Part shown: positions 4,211 to 38,555 of the stretch, piece by piece
Position numbering within the stretch: position 1 is the first letter of the stretch
How the letters are laid out: each line of letters starts with the position of its first letter
From: an uncultured Acetobacteraceae bacterium
GTDB lineage: Bacteria > Pseudomonadota > Alphaproteobacteria > Acetobacterales > Acetobacteraceae
Reading direction: 5' to 3'
Length of the DNA stretch: 42,995 bases
Assembly: GCA_903895595.1 (NCBI GenBank)
Contig: CAITUP010000047.1
Span: 1-42,995, forward strand
Position numbers and translations under genes: made by a program
Notes under the pieces: model-generated
The model's database searches: none
The model's input: only the letters and a program-made list of their open reading frames with translations
What the model was told of the DNA's origin: nothing

Positions 4211-4843
4211 ATGTCGTACGCGGTCAAAGAAATCTTCCTGACTCTGCAGGGCGAAGGCGGACAGGCCGGGCGCGCCTCGGTGTTTTGCCGGTTCGCCGGC
4301 TGCAATCTCTGGTCGGGGCGGGAGGAAGATCGTGCCTCGGCGGTCTGCCAGTTTTGCGATACCGATTTCGTGGGCATGGACGGGGAAGGCGGCGGGCGGT
4401 TCGCTTCGGCCGCCGATCTGACCGCCGCCATCGTTGCCTGCTGGGGCGACGGGCACGACCGCCGGCATGTGGTGTTCACCGGCGGAGAGCCGTTGTTGCA
4501 GCTCGATCCGCCGCTGATCGCCGCGATCCATGCGGCGGGGTTCGAGATTTCCATCGAAACGAACGGCACGCTGCCTGTGCCCGATGGGATCGATTGGATT
4601 TGCGTCAGCCCCAAAGCCGGCGCGGAATTCGTCCAGCGGTCCGGCACTGAGTTGAAACTGATTTTTCCGCAGCCGGGGATCGACCCGCGGGATTTTCTGT
4701 CGTTGCCGTTCCGCCACTTCTTCCTGCAGGCCATGGACGGGCCGAACCGCGCGGCGAATACGGCGGCGGCGGTTGAGTATTGTTTGCGGAATCCTCGGTG
4801 GCGGCTGAGTGTACAGACGCACAAATATATCGGGATTTCCTAA
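4211..4843 (+). CDS. queE: 7-carboxy-7-deazaguanine synthase QueE (radical SAM)
   Basis: QueE performs the radical-SAM ring contraction of 6-carboxy-tetrahydropterin to 7-carboxy-7-deazaguanine on the way to queuosine. The 210-residue protein starts MSYAVKEIFLTLQGEGGQAG. The iron-sulfur ligands are C31, C46 and C49, a CX14CX2C spacing as described for Burkholderia-type QueE rather than the classic CX3CX2C. SAM-binding GGEP is at 92-94 and IETNGT follows. The other queuosine precursor genes (queC, queD, queF) are not in the window. Its TAA overlaps the TAG of the convergent peroxiredoxin-like gene. Confidence 0.93.
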   Translation: MSYAVKEIFLTLQGEGGQAGRASVFCRFAGCNLWSGREEDRASAVCQFCDTDFVGMDGEGGGRFASAADLTAAIVACWGDGHDRRHVVFTGGEPLLQLDPPLIAAIHAAGFEISIETNGTLPVPDGIDWICVSPKAGAEFVQRSGTELKLIFPQPGIDPRDFLSLPFRHFFLQAMDGPNRAANTAAAVEYCLRNPRWRLSVQTHKYIGIS

Positions 4844-5475
4844 CCGCCGATCGCCCGCAGTGCCTTCAAAATCGCTTCCGGCTCGGTGCGCTCCGTCACG
4901 TCGCCGCTGACCTGGGCGAAGCGAATCACGCCGGTTCGGTCGGCCACGAACAGGCCCGGCATCGGCAGCAGCCCGCTCGCGTCGCCGTGACGCGCGTCCA
5001 GATCGACACCGCCATTTTTGTAAAAATACCGCAACGTGTCGGGCAGCCGGTAGACCACGCCGAACTGCATCGCGACGGCGGAATCGACGTCGCACAGGAC
5101 CGGAAACCGCAACGACAGGCCTGTGACGGCGGACAGCGCGGGCGCACCGATGTCGGGGGTAATGGCGATCAGCCGGCCGCCGAGCGCCGCGATCTCCGGC
5201 ACGATGTCGTTGTAGGCGGTGAGGGTTTCCTTGCAGAAGGGGCACCAATCGCCGCGGAAAAACATCGCCGCGACCGGACCCGCGGCGAGCAATTCGTCGG
5301 ACGAAACCAGGTCCCCGTCCGCGGTTGGCAGCACGAAATCCGGCATGGGGTCACCGGGCTTCAGCACGCCGTCCCCCGTTGTCCGCGACAGGCGCGCGGC
5401 AAGTTCGTCGAGCATGGCGCGATAATGCGCGGGCCGTAGGCTCATCATCGCGCGCAGGCGGTCTCGCAGGCTCAT
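4840..5475 (-). CDS. Peroxiredoxin-like AhpC/TSA-family protein, Cys form
   Basis: A thioredoxin-fold protein of 211 residues. The N-terminal helical part (1-38) is followed by KPGDPMPDFVLP (39-50) and FFRGDWCPFCKETL. This carries the redox motif C78-x-x-C81, then a thioredoxin-like core ending near VSGDVTERTEP. It probably reduces peroxides or disulfides in the cytoplasm, as no signal peptide is seen. Start ATG 5475 sits one base after the LysR stop (TGACATG), so translation is probably coupled to the regulator; a longer reading from 5502 would overlap LysR. The paralogue at 37006-37677 has TGA in place of the first active-site Cys. Peroxiredoxin-like is sure; substrate unknown. Confidence 0.88.
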   Translation of the reverse strand: MSLRDRLRAMMSLRPAHYRAMLDELAARLSRTTGDGVLKPGDPMPDFVLPTADGDLVSSDELLAAGPVAAMFFRGDWCPFCKETLTAYNDIVPEIAALGGRLIAITPDIGAPALSAVTGLSLRFPVLCDVDSAVAMQFGVVYRLPDTLRYFYKNGGVDLDARHGDASGLLPMPGLFVADRTGVIRFAQVSGDVTERTEPEAILKALRAIGG

Positions 5476-5476
5476 G

Positions 5477-6385
5477 TCACGCTGCCGCGGCTTCGGCCGC
5501 ATCCAGACTCCAGGCGCGGGCGCGCAGCATTTTCAGGAACAAGGCCGGTGTCGGTCCCAGCGGCCGGCCGGCGACCGCGCCGAGGACGATATTCCGTCCG
5601 CTTGGTTCGGCGACGATAGGCCGGCGCAGCATGGGGGCCATCGTCGTCATCCGCTCCCCAGCCAGGGAAATGCCCAAAGACGCCTGCACCATTTCCAGAA
5701 TTTGCTCGAAATTATTGGCGAAATGCTGCCGGCGCGGCTTGGTGTCGGCGGTTTCGCACAGCGCGCCGATGAAGCGGCGCACCGGGCATGCGGCGTCTTC
5801 ATTCAGCAGCAGGCATTCCTCGGCGATATCGCGGATACCGATGGTTTCGCGATCCTGGAAGCGGTGGCCGGGCGGGCAGATGACCATGTAGCGTTCGTAA
5901 AACAGCGGCCAGCGATGCATTCGTTCCGGCAGCGTGGGGCTGTCGACCAGCAGGGCCAAATCGATCTCGCTGCCGAGCATGCGGTCGCAAAGGTCGGTTT
6001 GGGATCCTTGGCGGAGGGAGAGGGAAATGTCCTGATTGTGCCGCCGCAGCGTCGCCATGGCTTGGGTCAGTAAAGACGCCGGCACGGAATATTCCAGCCC
6101 GATCCGCAGCGGGGAGGTTTCGCGCCGGCCGAACGCTTGCGCCTCGGTCCGGGCTTCGCGCACGGATTCCATGGTGCGTTCCAGCGCCGGGCGGACGGTG
6201 CGGCCGAGATCGGTCAACTGGGTGTGACCGCGTTCGCGATGAAACAGCGGACCGCCGAGCTCTTCTTCCAGCTTTTGGATAGCGCGGGTCAGCGCCGGCT
6301 GGGATACCGCGCATTCTTCGGCAGCCCGCGTGAAGTGCAGCGTGCGGGCGAGAACGGTAAAATACCTGATCTGACTAAGTTCCAT
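5477..6385 (-). CDS. LysR-family transcriptional regulator
   Basis: A 302-residue regulator with an N-terminal winged helix-turn-helix (about 1-60: MELSQIRYFTVLARTLHFTR, then SQPALTRAIQKLEEELG). It has the linker helix and a periplasmic-binding-like effector domain (about 90-295). Start ATG 6385 matches the conserved LysR opening; the frame extends to 6433 without similarity. It forms a tight unit with the downstream peroxiredoxin-like gene, so that gene is its likeliest target. It is also divergent from bdhA 193 bp away, a common arrangement for LysR targets. The effector cannot be told; the cysteines present are not enough to call it OxyR. Confidence 0.92.
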   Translation of the reverse strand: MELSQIRYFTVLARTLHFTRAAEECAVSQPALTRAIQKLEEELGGPLFHRERGHTQLTDLGRTVRPALERTMESVREARTEAQAFGRRETSPLRIGLEYSVPASLLTQAMATLRRHNQDISLSLRQGSQTDLCDRMLGSEIDLALLVDSPTLPERMHRWPLFYERYMVICPPGHRFQDRETIGIRDIAEECLLLNEDAACPVRRFIGALCETADTKPRRQHFANNFEQILEMVQASLGISLAGERMTTMAPMLRRPIVAEPSGRNIVLGAVAGRPLGPTPALFLKMLRARAWSLDAAEAAAA

Positions 6386-35495: not shown

Positions 35496-36740
35496 TTATT
35501 CCGCCGCCGCGCGTTGAGCCTGCATATTGTGCGGCATGTAATTGACGCTGACGGGCTGGTTCGTTTCGAACGGGCTCTTCAGGTCCATTTCCTTGGCCAT
35601 TTCGCGCACGGCCGGGAAGACTTCCTCGCCCAGCAGGCGGATGCAGGTCTTCGCGTCCTGGTGCGACACGGTGCCGTCGTTGCCCCAGAAGGCCAGAATG
35701 CCCGGACGGGTTTCTTCCAGAAGCAGGCGCAGCTTGGCGATGACCTGCTTGGGCGTGCCGGCGATGATCATCAGTTCGTCCATCTGCTTTTCCAGCGCCG
35801 GGCGGTAGCGCGGGCTGGTGGAGCGGCCGGTGGCGAATTCCACGAAGGCGCGGCGATTTTCCGGGCTGCCGTAGCCGGCCGGCGTGCTCCACACCGGATG
35901 CGCGAGGCCAGTGAACTCGCCCTGCATCCACATGAACTGGCGGGCGTTTTCGATGGCTTTTTCTTCGGTCTCCGCCACATGGATCTGCTTCAGCAGGCCG
36001 TGATAGTCGGGGCCGCCTTTGTAACCGGCTTCCAGCGCGTGCTTGTCATACAGGTCCCAAATCTGGCGGGTACGCTCGACCGGGGTGTTCAGCGCGATGT
36101 AGGGATAGCCGTGCTGCGCGGCCCAGACGATGGTTTCCTTGCTGATGACGCCGGGAATCCAGATGCGGGGGTGCGGCTTCTGCAGCGGCACGGTCCAGGG
36201 GTTCACAACGCGGTTTTGATAGTGCGTGCCCTCCCACCGGAACGGGCCGGGGGTGGTCCAGGACTTCACGATGAGGTCGTGCGCTTCCTGGAAACGCTCC
36301 CGGTTGAAAGCGGGGTTGATGCCGCCGGCCAGCTGTTCCTGGCCGCCGCCGCGGACGAAGCCGGACACCAGACGGCCCTTCGACAGCATGTCGATCATCG
36401 ACAGCTCTTCCGACAACTGCACCGGGTTGTCCCACGCCGGCAGCGGATTGCCAAGCATGACGATTTTGCAATTTTTGGTGGCGGCGGCGAGGGCGGAGGC
36501 GAAAATATTCGCGCGGGCCTGCATGCAGAACGGGGCATTATGATGCTCGTTCAGCATAATGCCGTCGATGCCGAGCTCATCGGCGAGGATGTAGTGTTCG
36601 AGGTACTCGTTATAAAGGCGACTGCCCTGGACGGGGTCGAAGTGCTTGTTGGAGAACATCAGCGCGGTCGCGCCGTAATCGAGGCCGGCTTTGGCGTCGT
36701 AGGCCGACATCGGCTGTTCGGTGAAATACATCAGATGCAT
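35496..36740 (-). CDS. Luciferase-like (LLM-class) flavin-dependent oxidoreductase
   Basis: A 414-residue TIM-barrel flavoenzyme. LADELGIDGIMLNEHHNAPF, LGNPLPAWDNPVQLSEELSMIDMLSKGRLVSGF and VRGGGQEQLAGGIN carry the luciferase-family pattern. It probably oxidises a substrate with FMNH2 and oxygen supplied by a separate reductase; none is adjacent. AAAGGAG lies 8 bases before ATG 36740; the frame runs on to 37094 as shadow. It heads a unit with the SDR gene. Confidence 0.91.
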   Translation of the reverse strand: MHLMYFTEQPMSAYDAKAGLDYGATALMFSNKHFDPVQGSRLYNEYLEHYILADELGIDGIMLNEHHNAPFCMQARANIFASALAAATKNCKIVMLGNPLPAWDNPVQLSEELSMIDMLSKGRLVSGFVRGGGQEQLAGGINPAFNRERFQEAHDLIVKSWTTPGPFRWEGTHYQNRVVNPWTVPLQKPHPRIWIPGVISKETIVWAAQHGYPYIALNTPVERTRQIWDLYDKHALEAGYKGGPDYHGLLKQIHVAETEEKAIENARQFMWMQGEFTGLAHPVWSTPAGYGSPENRRAFVEFATGRSTSPRYRPALEKQMDELMIIAGTPKQVIAKLRLLLEETRPGILAFWGNDGTVSHQDAKTCIRLLGEEVFPAVREMAKEMDLKSPFETNQPVSVNYMPHNMQAQRAAAE

Positions 36741-36916: not shown

Positions 36917-37010
36917 CGTCATGGTCCGCGAATGCGGACCACCCACGACCCGCGGTTCGGGGCTCGATAAAGTCGTGGGTGGCGGGCCTTCGCCCTCCCA
37001 GACGATTACG
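36917..37010. repeat. Palindromic intergenic repeat, family C
   Basis: Begins CGTCATGGTCCGCGAATGCG, with arms CCACCCACGAC and GTCGTGGGTGG enclosing a loop of about 22 bases. It ends in a degenerate ACGATTACGG-like arm. It shares the outer CGTCATGG end with family A but has different inner arms. It lies in the gap between the luciferase-like start (36740) and the peroxiredoxin-like stop (37006), touching that stop. The rest of the gap, 36741-36916, should hold the promoter of the luciferase-like gene. Confidence 0.7.
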
Positions 37011-37677
37011 GCGAAAGGCGGCGCAGGGCGTCCAGGGTCGTCTCCGGCTCCGGCCGTGTCGTATAATCCGGATCGGCATCGACCGATCGGACAATACCCT
37101 CTTTATCGAGGACGAACCGGGACGGCACCGGCAGGCGCCACAGATCGTCGCCGTTGAATTTCACCAGATCGACACCGATCTTTTTGTAGACCTCGATCAG
37201 TTCGTCCGGCAACGGCATCGCGACTCCGAAACTTTCCGCGACACCGTTGCCGGCGTCGTGAAGAATGTCGAAATCCAGTTTCAGTTTTGCCTTCAAGTCC
37301 GCCAAAAACACCGGCAATTGCGGCGAAACGACGATCAATTCGGCTCCGAGCGCGCGGATGGATGGTAGCACTGCATTCAAAGCATACAGCTCTGATCTAC
37401 AGTACGGTCACCATTGGCCCCGGAAATACGACACGACCAGCGGCCCGCGCGCCAGCAATCCGGCGGACGCGACGATCGCACCGTCCTGATTGGGCAAGGA
37501 GAACGCGGGCGCCGCCGTACCGACGGCGGGCATGCGTGTGCGAAAATCCGATTCCTGCTGCGCTTTGGTGACCTTGTGCATGACCGCCAGCAGTGGCGGC
37601 GGGATACGGCCGGGCTTGGTGCCGTCCCCCTCCGCGCCCAGGCGGATTGCCGCCAGTTCTTCGGTTAGCGTTGCCAT
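37006..37677 (-). CDS. Candidate selenoprotein: peroxiredoxin-like AhpC/TSA protein with in-frame TGA (Sec90)
   Basis: A 223-codon gene interrupted only by TGA at 37410-37408, codon 90. Upstream: MATLTEELAAIRLGAEG... then VVSYFRGQW. Downstream: PYCRSELYALNAVLPSIRAL through ...LDALRRLSP. The paralogue at 4840-5475 reads FFRGDWCPFCKETL, so TGA falls exactly on the first active-site Cys, giving W-U-P-Y-C (C93 intact). The frame has no other stop, ends normally at TAA, and begins with AGGAGG before ATG 37677. A hairpin follows the TGA at SECIS distance. Without Sec insertion the product stops at 89 residues, before the redox motif. A nonsense mutation or sequencing error is the alternative. The selA, selB, selC and selD genes are not in this window. 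It is probably a thiol or peroxide reductase. Confidence 0.75.
37365..37400 (-). promoter_or_regulatory. SECIS-like hairpin downstream of the in-frame TGA
   Basis: On the minus strand, CTGTAT pairs with ATGCAG (6 bp with one G-T pair) around loop GCTTTGA. An outer GTAG/CTAC stem closes it across an uneven internal loop. The apical loop starts 24 bases after the TGA and has a G at its first position. Bacterial SECIS elements have their loop about 16-37 bases after UGA with a G in the first two loop bases. It lies wholly inside the coding frame, as bacterial SECIS do. It is folded by eye only. Confidence 0.5.
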
Positions 37678-37772
37678 TCGACCTCCTGTTGTTGCAAGCG
37701 CCGGCGTCGATGGGTGCGCGGCGCTGTCGCTACCCTGACCGAGGCCGGCATGCGGCGCAATCGTTATGTCGC

Positions 37773-38555
37773 TTACGCGATGAGCGCCGACAATGCCGGC
37801 CAAGCGGCTGCGCCATTGACGCGAAAGGTTTCGACGACGGCGGGCGGGATAAAGGCGGTCACCGCGCGCTTAAACGCCGGGCGGGCCTGGATTTTCTCCA
37901 GCCAGGCTTTGGCGCGCGGCCGGGCGGCGATGAGCGGGCCCATGCCGAGGTGGTCGATACGGGTCAAGAATGGGACGACGGCGGTGTCGGCGGTGCTGAA
38001 CGACGCGCCCGCCAGGTACGGGGTTTCCGCCAGTTGCGCCTCCATTTCGTCCAGCAGACGGACGTAGCACCCGACGGCGGCTTTCATCTCCGGCGCCGCC
38101 ACGCCGTGATCCAGCACGCTCTGCCGCAGCGCTCGGCGGGCCGGATCGGCGATGGCGGCGACGAGGGCGGCCAGCTCCTCCTTCGGCTTTTGCAACAGTG
38201 CCGGCCGGAACGCGATCGCATAGGTCAGAACGCCGGTGAAGGGATGCACCTCATCGATCGTCTTGTCCCACAGGCGCGCGCGGGCGCGGTCGCGCGGGGC
38301 GGCGGGACGCAGCGGGGATTCGGGAAAAACCTCATCCAGATATTCCGCGATGACACTGGATTCGCGCAACGCGAACCCGTCGTGCACCAAGGTCGGCACC
38401 TGCCCCATGCGATTGAGCGCGCGGTACTCCGGCCGGTGCTGCCCGCCGTTGAACAGGTCGACGGGATGGCTGGTCCAGGTCAGGCCCTTTTCCTCCAGCA
38501 CGAGGCGGGCGCGTTCGGACGCGGTGGAGACGGGGCCGTGATGGAGTTCGAGCAT
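37773..38555 (-). CDS. Glutathione S-transferase
   Basis: A 260-residue cytoplasmic protein. The thioredoxin-like N-domain (about 1-80) has GPVSTASERARLVLEEKGL, where S10 or a nearby Ser is the likely thiolate-activating residue. VPTLVHDGFALRESSVIAEYLDE supplies the cis-Pro and the glutathione-contact ES pair. An all-helical C-domain (about 90-250) follows with FSTADTAVVPFLTRID, the N-capping Asp motif. It conjugates or isomerises electrophiles with glutathione. It is 95 bp upstream of the candidate selenoprotein on the same strand, so a shared redox role is possible. Confidence 0.9.
   Translation of the reverse strand: MLELHHGPVSTASERARLVLEEKGLTWTSHPVDLFNGGQHRPEYRALNRMGQVPTLVHDGFALRESSVIAEYLDEVFPESPLRPAAPRDRARARLWDKTIDEVHPFTGVLTYAIAFRPALLQKPKEELAALVAAIADPARRALRQSVLDHGVAAPEMKAAVGCYVRLLDEMEAQLAETPYLAGASFSTADTAVVPFLTRIDHLGMGPLIAARPRAKAWLEKIQARPAFKRAVTAFIPPAVVETFRVNGAAAWPALSALIA

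Follow-up and report, generated by a model that had tools for sequence, protein, structure and literature searches.

The minus-strand gene at positions 37006..37677 of the window, the whole 42,995-nt stretch of Acetobacteraceae DNA analysed here, very probably encodes a peroxiredoxin-like selenoprotein of 223 residues with a single selenocysteine (Sec) at codon 90. We give this reading a probability of about 0.96, actual insertion of Sec being what we infer from the genomic evidence set out below. The sequence-only reading had described one frame open on both sides of a single TGA, with an AGGAGG start signal and a TAA end, and the gene has this form: the ATG lies at 37675-37677, a Shine–Dalgarno AGGAGG at 37682..37687 is separated from it by a 4-nt spacer, the TGA occupies 37408..37410 and the TAA stop 37006-37008, all on the minus strand. 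Conceptual translation with the TGA taken as a residue gives the active-site sequence F-R-G-Q-W-U-P-Y-C, comprising U90 and C93, in agreement with the proposed W-U-P-Y-C site with its second Cys retained. Cys93, which completes the UxxC redox pair (codon TGT, 37399..37401, minus strand), is invariant among 83 aligned homologues.

The codon at the Sec90 column was read in 89 distinct homologue rows, which are the loci examined (no more than 30 per genome search) after matches missing residue 90 and four duplicates had been left out. It is TGA in 25 rows, the window gene included, TGC or TGT in 61, and a Thr codon in three distant Bcp-type rows. Exactly one internal in-frame TGA is present in every one of the 25 TGA genes. 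The column check named beforehand, asking for TGA or Cys in homologues, therefore did not refute the Sec reading, and the view that a chance stop at this codon is unlikely is supported by the 25 distinct loci and by the finding that, among seven AhpC-TSA matches in the genome, the gene at 37006-37677 alone has an internal stop.

The TGA form was found in 6 of 59 related genomes (the window's own included), in 2 of 398 genomes of the phylum and in 13 of 397 genomes of the family. The 13 are the best-scoring rows of the family search, and the lower rows among the matches listed are without an internal stop; the query of the phylum and family searches was an alignment whose first row has no initial Met, and this alignment was later rebuilt with the full protein. 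A contig scan gave 11 relatives, ten of them with TGA: an Acetobacteraceae metagenome-assembled genome (MAG; 80% identity), one alphaproteobacterium, one gammaproteobacterium, one member of the Reyranellaceae and six Rokuibacteriota. The last 150 residues of a protein in one genome of the family (G612) are identical to those of the Acetobacteraceae MAG record. Relatives in 115 plasmid records are all below 60% identity, and those whose type was examined are Cys-type. One Cys-type homologue (L082, genome G244) is listed with an internal TAG, and the first Cys is replaced by Tyr or Asp (WYPYC, WDPFC) in database homologues P0021 and P0063.

The sequence-only reading held that the organism must have selABCD, and selA, selB, selD and tRNA-Sec are all present in the assembly (5.46 Mb in 170 contigs, 99.6% complete), so that this check, also named beforehand, was not refuting. 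The tRNA-Sec scores 75 bits with the Rfam model and is called tRNA-SeC with anticodon tca (UCA) by ARAGORN. Because the Rfam model also matches ordinary tRNAs (one tRNA-Ser barely above the cut-off in this genome; matches in 14 of 14 control genomes, five over the cut-off), the call rests on score and anticodon together. The selA gene (552 bits), the sole match in the genome, adjoins tRNA-Sec; selB (369 bits; of nine matches, the only one over the cut-off) is on a separate contig and its product contains SelB winged-helix domains; and selD scores 306 bits (of three matches, the only one over the cut-off). SelD is part of a 710-residue frame with a fused N-terminal pyridine-nucleotide oxidoreductase domain (NADH dehydrogenase-SelD; G000:C52, L018:382-2511), and resembles the Ndh-SelD fusion reported in the available text of PMC2398784. 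A search of the genome for the formate dehydrogenase alpha subunit gave no match at the cut-off and no internal stop in the 11 matched stretches; the Sec system is complete, yet this search yielded no TGA-bearing client.

A frame open through TGA would also be seen if TGA coded genome-wide for another amino acid such as Trp. Such a reassignment is very improbable: the relatives have Cys at the residue, not Trp, a tRNA-Sec with anticodon tca is present, and 17 of the 25 TGA genes, though not the window gene with its TAA, terminate at TGA, which therefore keeps its stop meaning there.

A SECIS-type hairpin lies immediately downstream of the TGA (37368..37405, minus strand), with a basal stem pairing 37398-37405 with 37368-37375, an apical stem pairing 37389-37395 with 37377-37383, and the loop UGUAU at 37384-37388. 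Counted from the UGA, a 48-nt segment has a folding energy of −20.5 kcal/mol (z of −5.18; equalled by 0 of 200 shuffles). The bacterial SECIS model in the legend to Fig. 2 of PMC13188914 specifies 3-9 nt for the loop, 4-16 bp for the upper stem, a G within the first two loop positions, a UGA-to-loop distance of 16-37 nt and an energy of −7.5 kcal/mol or lower; the window hairpin lies within each of these ranges (loop of 5 nt with G as its second base, stem of 7 bp, distance of 19 nt, −20.5 kcal/mol). An Rfam scan returned no SECIS match at the site, only two unrelated matches, both below their family cut-offs. When the genome was searched with a model of this SECIS, the site of the gene matched with an E value of 1.7e-18 and the next match had 0.094, so that no second gene with this element was found there.

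Comparison with 60 of the 61 Cys rows, one partial row being left out, shows that TGA and Cys genes are separated by a conserved register rather than by generic SECIS criteria. Of the 60 Cys genes, 42 also contain a generic hairpin with a stem of at least 4 bp, and 47 reach the energy limit, as do all 25 TGA genes. The 4-bp core together with the loop G, however, is found in 25 of 25 TGA genes versus 0 of 60 Cys genes (the core stem alone is possible in two), and codons 96, 97 and 99 are GAG, CTG and GCT in every TGA gene and mixed in the Cys genes. Hairpin z averages −2.45 in the TGA genes, of which 13 of 25 reach −2 or below, and +0.17 in the Cys genes, of which 1 of 60 does. The RNAalifold consensus contains the 4-bp core pairs only; a lower stem is not a general feature. 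Covariation in the hairpin is weak, and compensatory changes form no part of the published SECIS model. The covariation score lies above all 500 shuffles and above slid versions (0.154 versus 0.130 for the nearest); the number of pairs changed on both sides is three, versus 2.8 in shuffles, of which 326 of 500 reach three.

Purifying selection acts on both sides of the TGA. The ratio dN/dS is below 0.5 before and after it in all 12 TGA-gene pairs compared, which were picked by hand and have some sequences in common, and in nine of the 12 the 14 codons of the hairpin differ less at synonymous sites than either flank does. Decay of this copy, looked for as the sequence-only reading had suggested, is thus not seen. 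These results bear on the proposal that the gene is a pseudogene, or that a Cys codon was mutated or misread to TGA. TGC and TGT are one base from TGA, and the genome is a draft of 170 contigs; against this stand the same TGA codon in 25 distinct loci, with records from Pseudomonadota and Rokuibacteriota among them, the constraint on both sides of the codon and a hairpin core with loop G that is missing from 60 of 60 Cys genes. We consider the chance of such an error or lesion minimal, and rejected it along with genome-wide reassignment of TGA. Sec recoding, which had been offered as the simplest reading, is supported jointly by the machinery, the 25 TGA loci, the SECIS-type hairpin and the selection on both sides.

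A tree built from protein sequences, 25 with Sec and 58 with Cys, places the Sec rows on one side of one branch (support of 96/86; 98% of 200 bootstrap trees). The window paralogue was added to this set, and the rows omitted from it were L040, L082, L087, the partial one and the three with Thr. The tree fits a Sec form that arose once and then reached two phyla, whether by descent or by transfer; since the tree is unrooted, replacement of an ancient Sec form by Cys may explain it too. The Cys paralogue used for comparison (WCPFC; 4840..5502, minus strand) is 43% identical over residues 53-221, and the first Cys of its motif is residue 78 when counted from the ATG at 5475, as the sequence-only reading had it. 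Given this identity and its position in another Cys branch of the tree, the paralogue is not the closest relative.

The TGA form occurs together with selA. The TGA form was seen in 16 distinct genomes (six related genomes and ten others), every one of which has selA over the cut-off, and none of the 46 examined genomes without it (29 of the 59 relatives and 17 of 27 others) has the TGA form. A weak match in one selA-less genome (G044; E value of 1.9e-4), crossing three TGA and four TAG codons, was taken as chance and not counted. Fisher's test gives p = 6.5e-7 for the pooled genomes and, when restricted to the 59 relatives, 0.024, figures that overstate the strength of the association because the genomes are related and the 17 Cys-only genomes were drawn from the best Cys matches of the family search, not at random. 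In a further 24 of the 59 related genomes selA is present but the TGA form is not; there, Sec presumably serves other clients.

The full protein, with TGA read as a residue, matches PF00578 (AhpC-TSA) at 81.2 bits (cut-off of 26) and, less strongly, PF08534 at 54.6 bits (cut-off of 26.6). An AlphaFold2 model, computed with Cys for Sec, has a pLDDT of 97 and a pTM of 0.93, and Foldseek places Bcp, PrxQ, AhpE and ResA among the nearest solved folds. Residue 90 is predicted to immediately precede the active-site helix (residues 91-102), and in the model its position would match the place of thioredoxin-type CxxC sites. The classical peroxiredoxin signature is PxxxTxxC. It is absent here, Arg86 being at the place of the Pro and Sec90 at that of the Thr, so the earlier label 'peroxiredoxin-like' stands for the AhpC/TSA fold and fails if taken to mean a peroxiredoxin. 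In the three Bcp-type rows, Thr occupies the Sec90 column and Cys, which we take to be peroxidatic, the Cys93 column; this Thr, together with Arg86 for the Pro, makes the site one of thioredoxin type.

At the level of mechanism, SelB and Sec-tRNA would recode the UGA at codon 90 with the aid of the SECIS hairpin, which starts 2 nt 3′ of it. In the resulting enzyme, Sec90 would attack a peroxide or disulfide substrate, Cys93 would then resolve it by forming a selenenylsulfide, and the protein would be re-reduced by a donor of thioredoxin or glutathione type. To judge from fold and motif, the enzyme is most likely a thioredoxin-type UxxC reductase (thiol:disulfide or peroxide reductase), with Sec90 as the probable attacking residue. 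A modified peroxiredoxin, in which Sec is inserted but Cys93 attacks and Sec90 resolves, is the less likely assignment of roles, at odds that are appreciable all the same. Cys93 aligns with the Cys of the Bcp-type proteins, which have Thr at the Sec column, and Bcp, PrxQ and AhpE are among the nearest solved folds; the Pro and Thr of the signature are missing, however, and Sec usually occupies the attacking position.

Prx-like UxxC selenoproteins are already known. They date at the latest from the Sargasso Sea study (PMC1088965), where 'Prx-like' denotes UXXC in place of the TXXU of Prx; PMC2398784 uses the name 'Prx-like 1', and the legend to Fig. 3 of PMC1914089 describes the same positional difference between Prx (TXXU) and a UXXC family. 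Table 1 of PMC13188914 has entries for PF00578 (UxxC/UxxU), PF08534 (UxxC) and cd02970 (UxxS), PMC9312934 is similar, and both assign proteins that share a domain but differ in Sec motif to separate subfamilies. The Prx-like thiol:disulfide oxidoreductases (PF00578, UxxC/UxxU) share with the window protein the AhpC/TSA domain, the UxxC motif and the thioredoxin-type Sec position. This likeness to the group, whose representative is WP_010940744.1, is one of domain and motif; the sources reported for the group are metagenomes of aquatic, mainly marine, origin and Deltaproteobacteria, most of them anaerobic. The redoxin family selenoprotein (PF08534, HEU0032618.1, PMC13188914), compared by description, has both PF08534 and UxxC in common with the window protein, for which PF00578 is the higher match. 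Sec peroxiredoxins, with the signature PxxxTxxU (PMC13188914), belong to the same fold superfamily; their Sec is at the peroxidatic Cys, whereas here it is at the Thr column of a site without PxxxT.

Some relatives of the window protein are named 'peroxiredoxin-like family protein', as is the cd02970 group (MDX2448127.1, PMC13188914), whose published motif is UxxS rather than UxxC with its invariant Cys93. PMC9312934 calls the UxxS family the AhpC/TSA family, pfam13911; PF13911 does not match the window protein at an E value of 0.001, and the SelL-related redox protein model NF040769 gives 19.8 bits against an NCBIfam cut-off of 120. Among papers retrieved on selenoproteins in connection with UPYC, Rokubacteria, Methylomirabilota, cd02970 or Acetobacteraceae, none, judged by its listing, describes this protein, and a search within PMC12013277 for six terms gave no hit. 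By domain and motif, the gene is a further member of the known Prx-like UxxC selenoproteins, perhaps of an unlisted subfamily when set against the listed ones by description; as the reviews split subfamilies by Sec motif, a UxxC form of cd02970 type would be unlisted. A more specific proposal, to which we give somewhat less than an even chance, is a WUPYC selenoprotein subfamily of the 'peroxiredoxin-like' family that is of single origin, has a near-fixed SECIS (GAGCUGnnnGCUyUG), extends across Acetobacteraceae-type Alphaproteobacteria, a gammaproteobacterium and Rokuibacteriota, and has no published listing as such, its members often being cut short in protein databases.

The neighbourhood of the gene is not generally conserved. 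Genes for a glutathione S-transferase (GST), a luciferase-like monooxygenase, an EamA transporter and an enoyl-CoA hydratase recur in some loci only, in a scan that took in 30 of the 100 flanking ORFs given by a crude caller, none of the 30 being from L101, L102, L054, L056 and L058. A luciferase-like monooxygenase or GST lies near the Sec gene in the window (35499-36740 and 37776-38555, both minus strand), in L055, L057 and L060, and in L024, L059 and L063 (for L063 the GST was found by tblastn only); most scanned neighbourhoods differ from that of the window.

A gene caller blind to Sec would be expected to report, in place of the gene, a 124-residue ORF starting at a TTG (Leu100; 37006..37380, minus strand), and the nearest database entry is 124 residues long and 98% identical. 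In the protein database, 83 of 109 matches start after residue 90, the pattern that would arise if callers took the first start codon past the TGA; proteins were admitted to this search only at 0.55 to 1.75 times the query length, which shut out N-terminal halves. From these start positions, relatives seem often to be recorded as truncated halves, their Sec codon taken as a stop. The 124-residue ORF, present in both the ORF list and database entries, would also fit two separate functional proteins, the second starting from the TTG at 37380; this is extremely unlikely, for the TTG lies within the conserved hairpin and within the predicted active-site helix, and the Cys relatives are one chain.

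On the reading that a single selenoprotein is made, the late starts of the database matches point to annotation error. The matched Sec and Cys branches, with a hairpin core that in the genes examined is seen in the Sec branch alone, offer a clean case in which to study how Sec and its RNA signal arise within one redox family. This lineage very probably uses selenocysteine, and the gene supplies a client where the formate dehydrogenase search gave none with a TGA.
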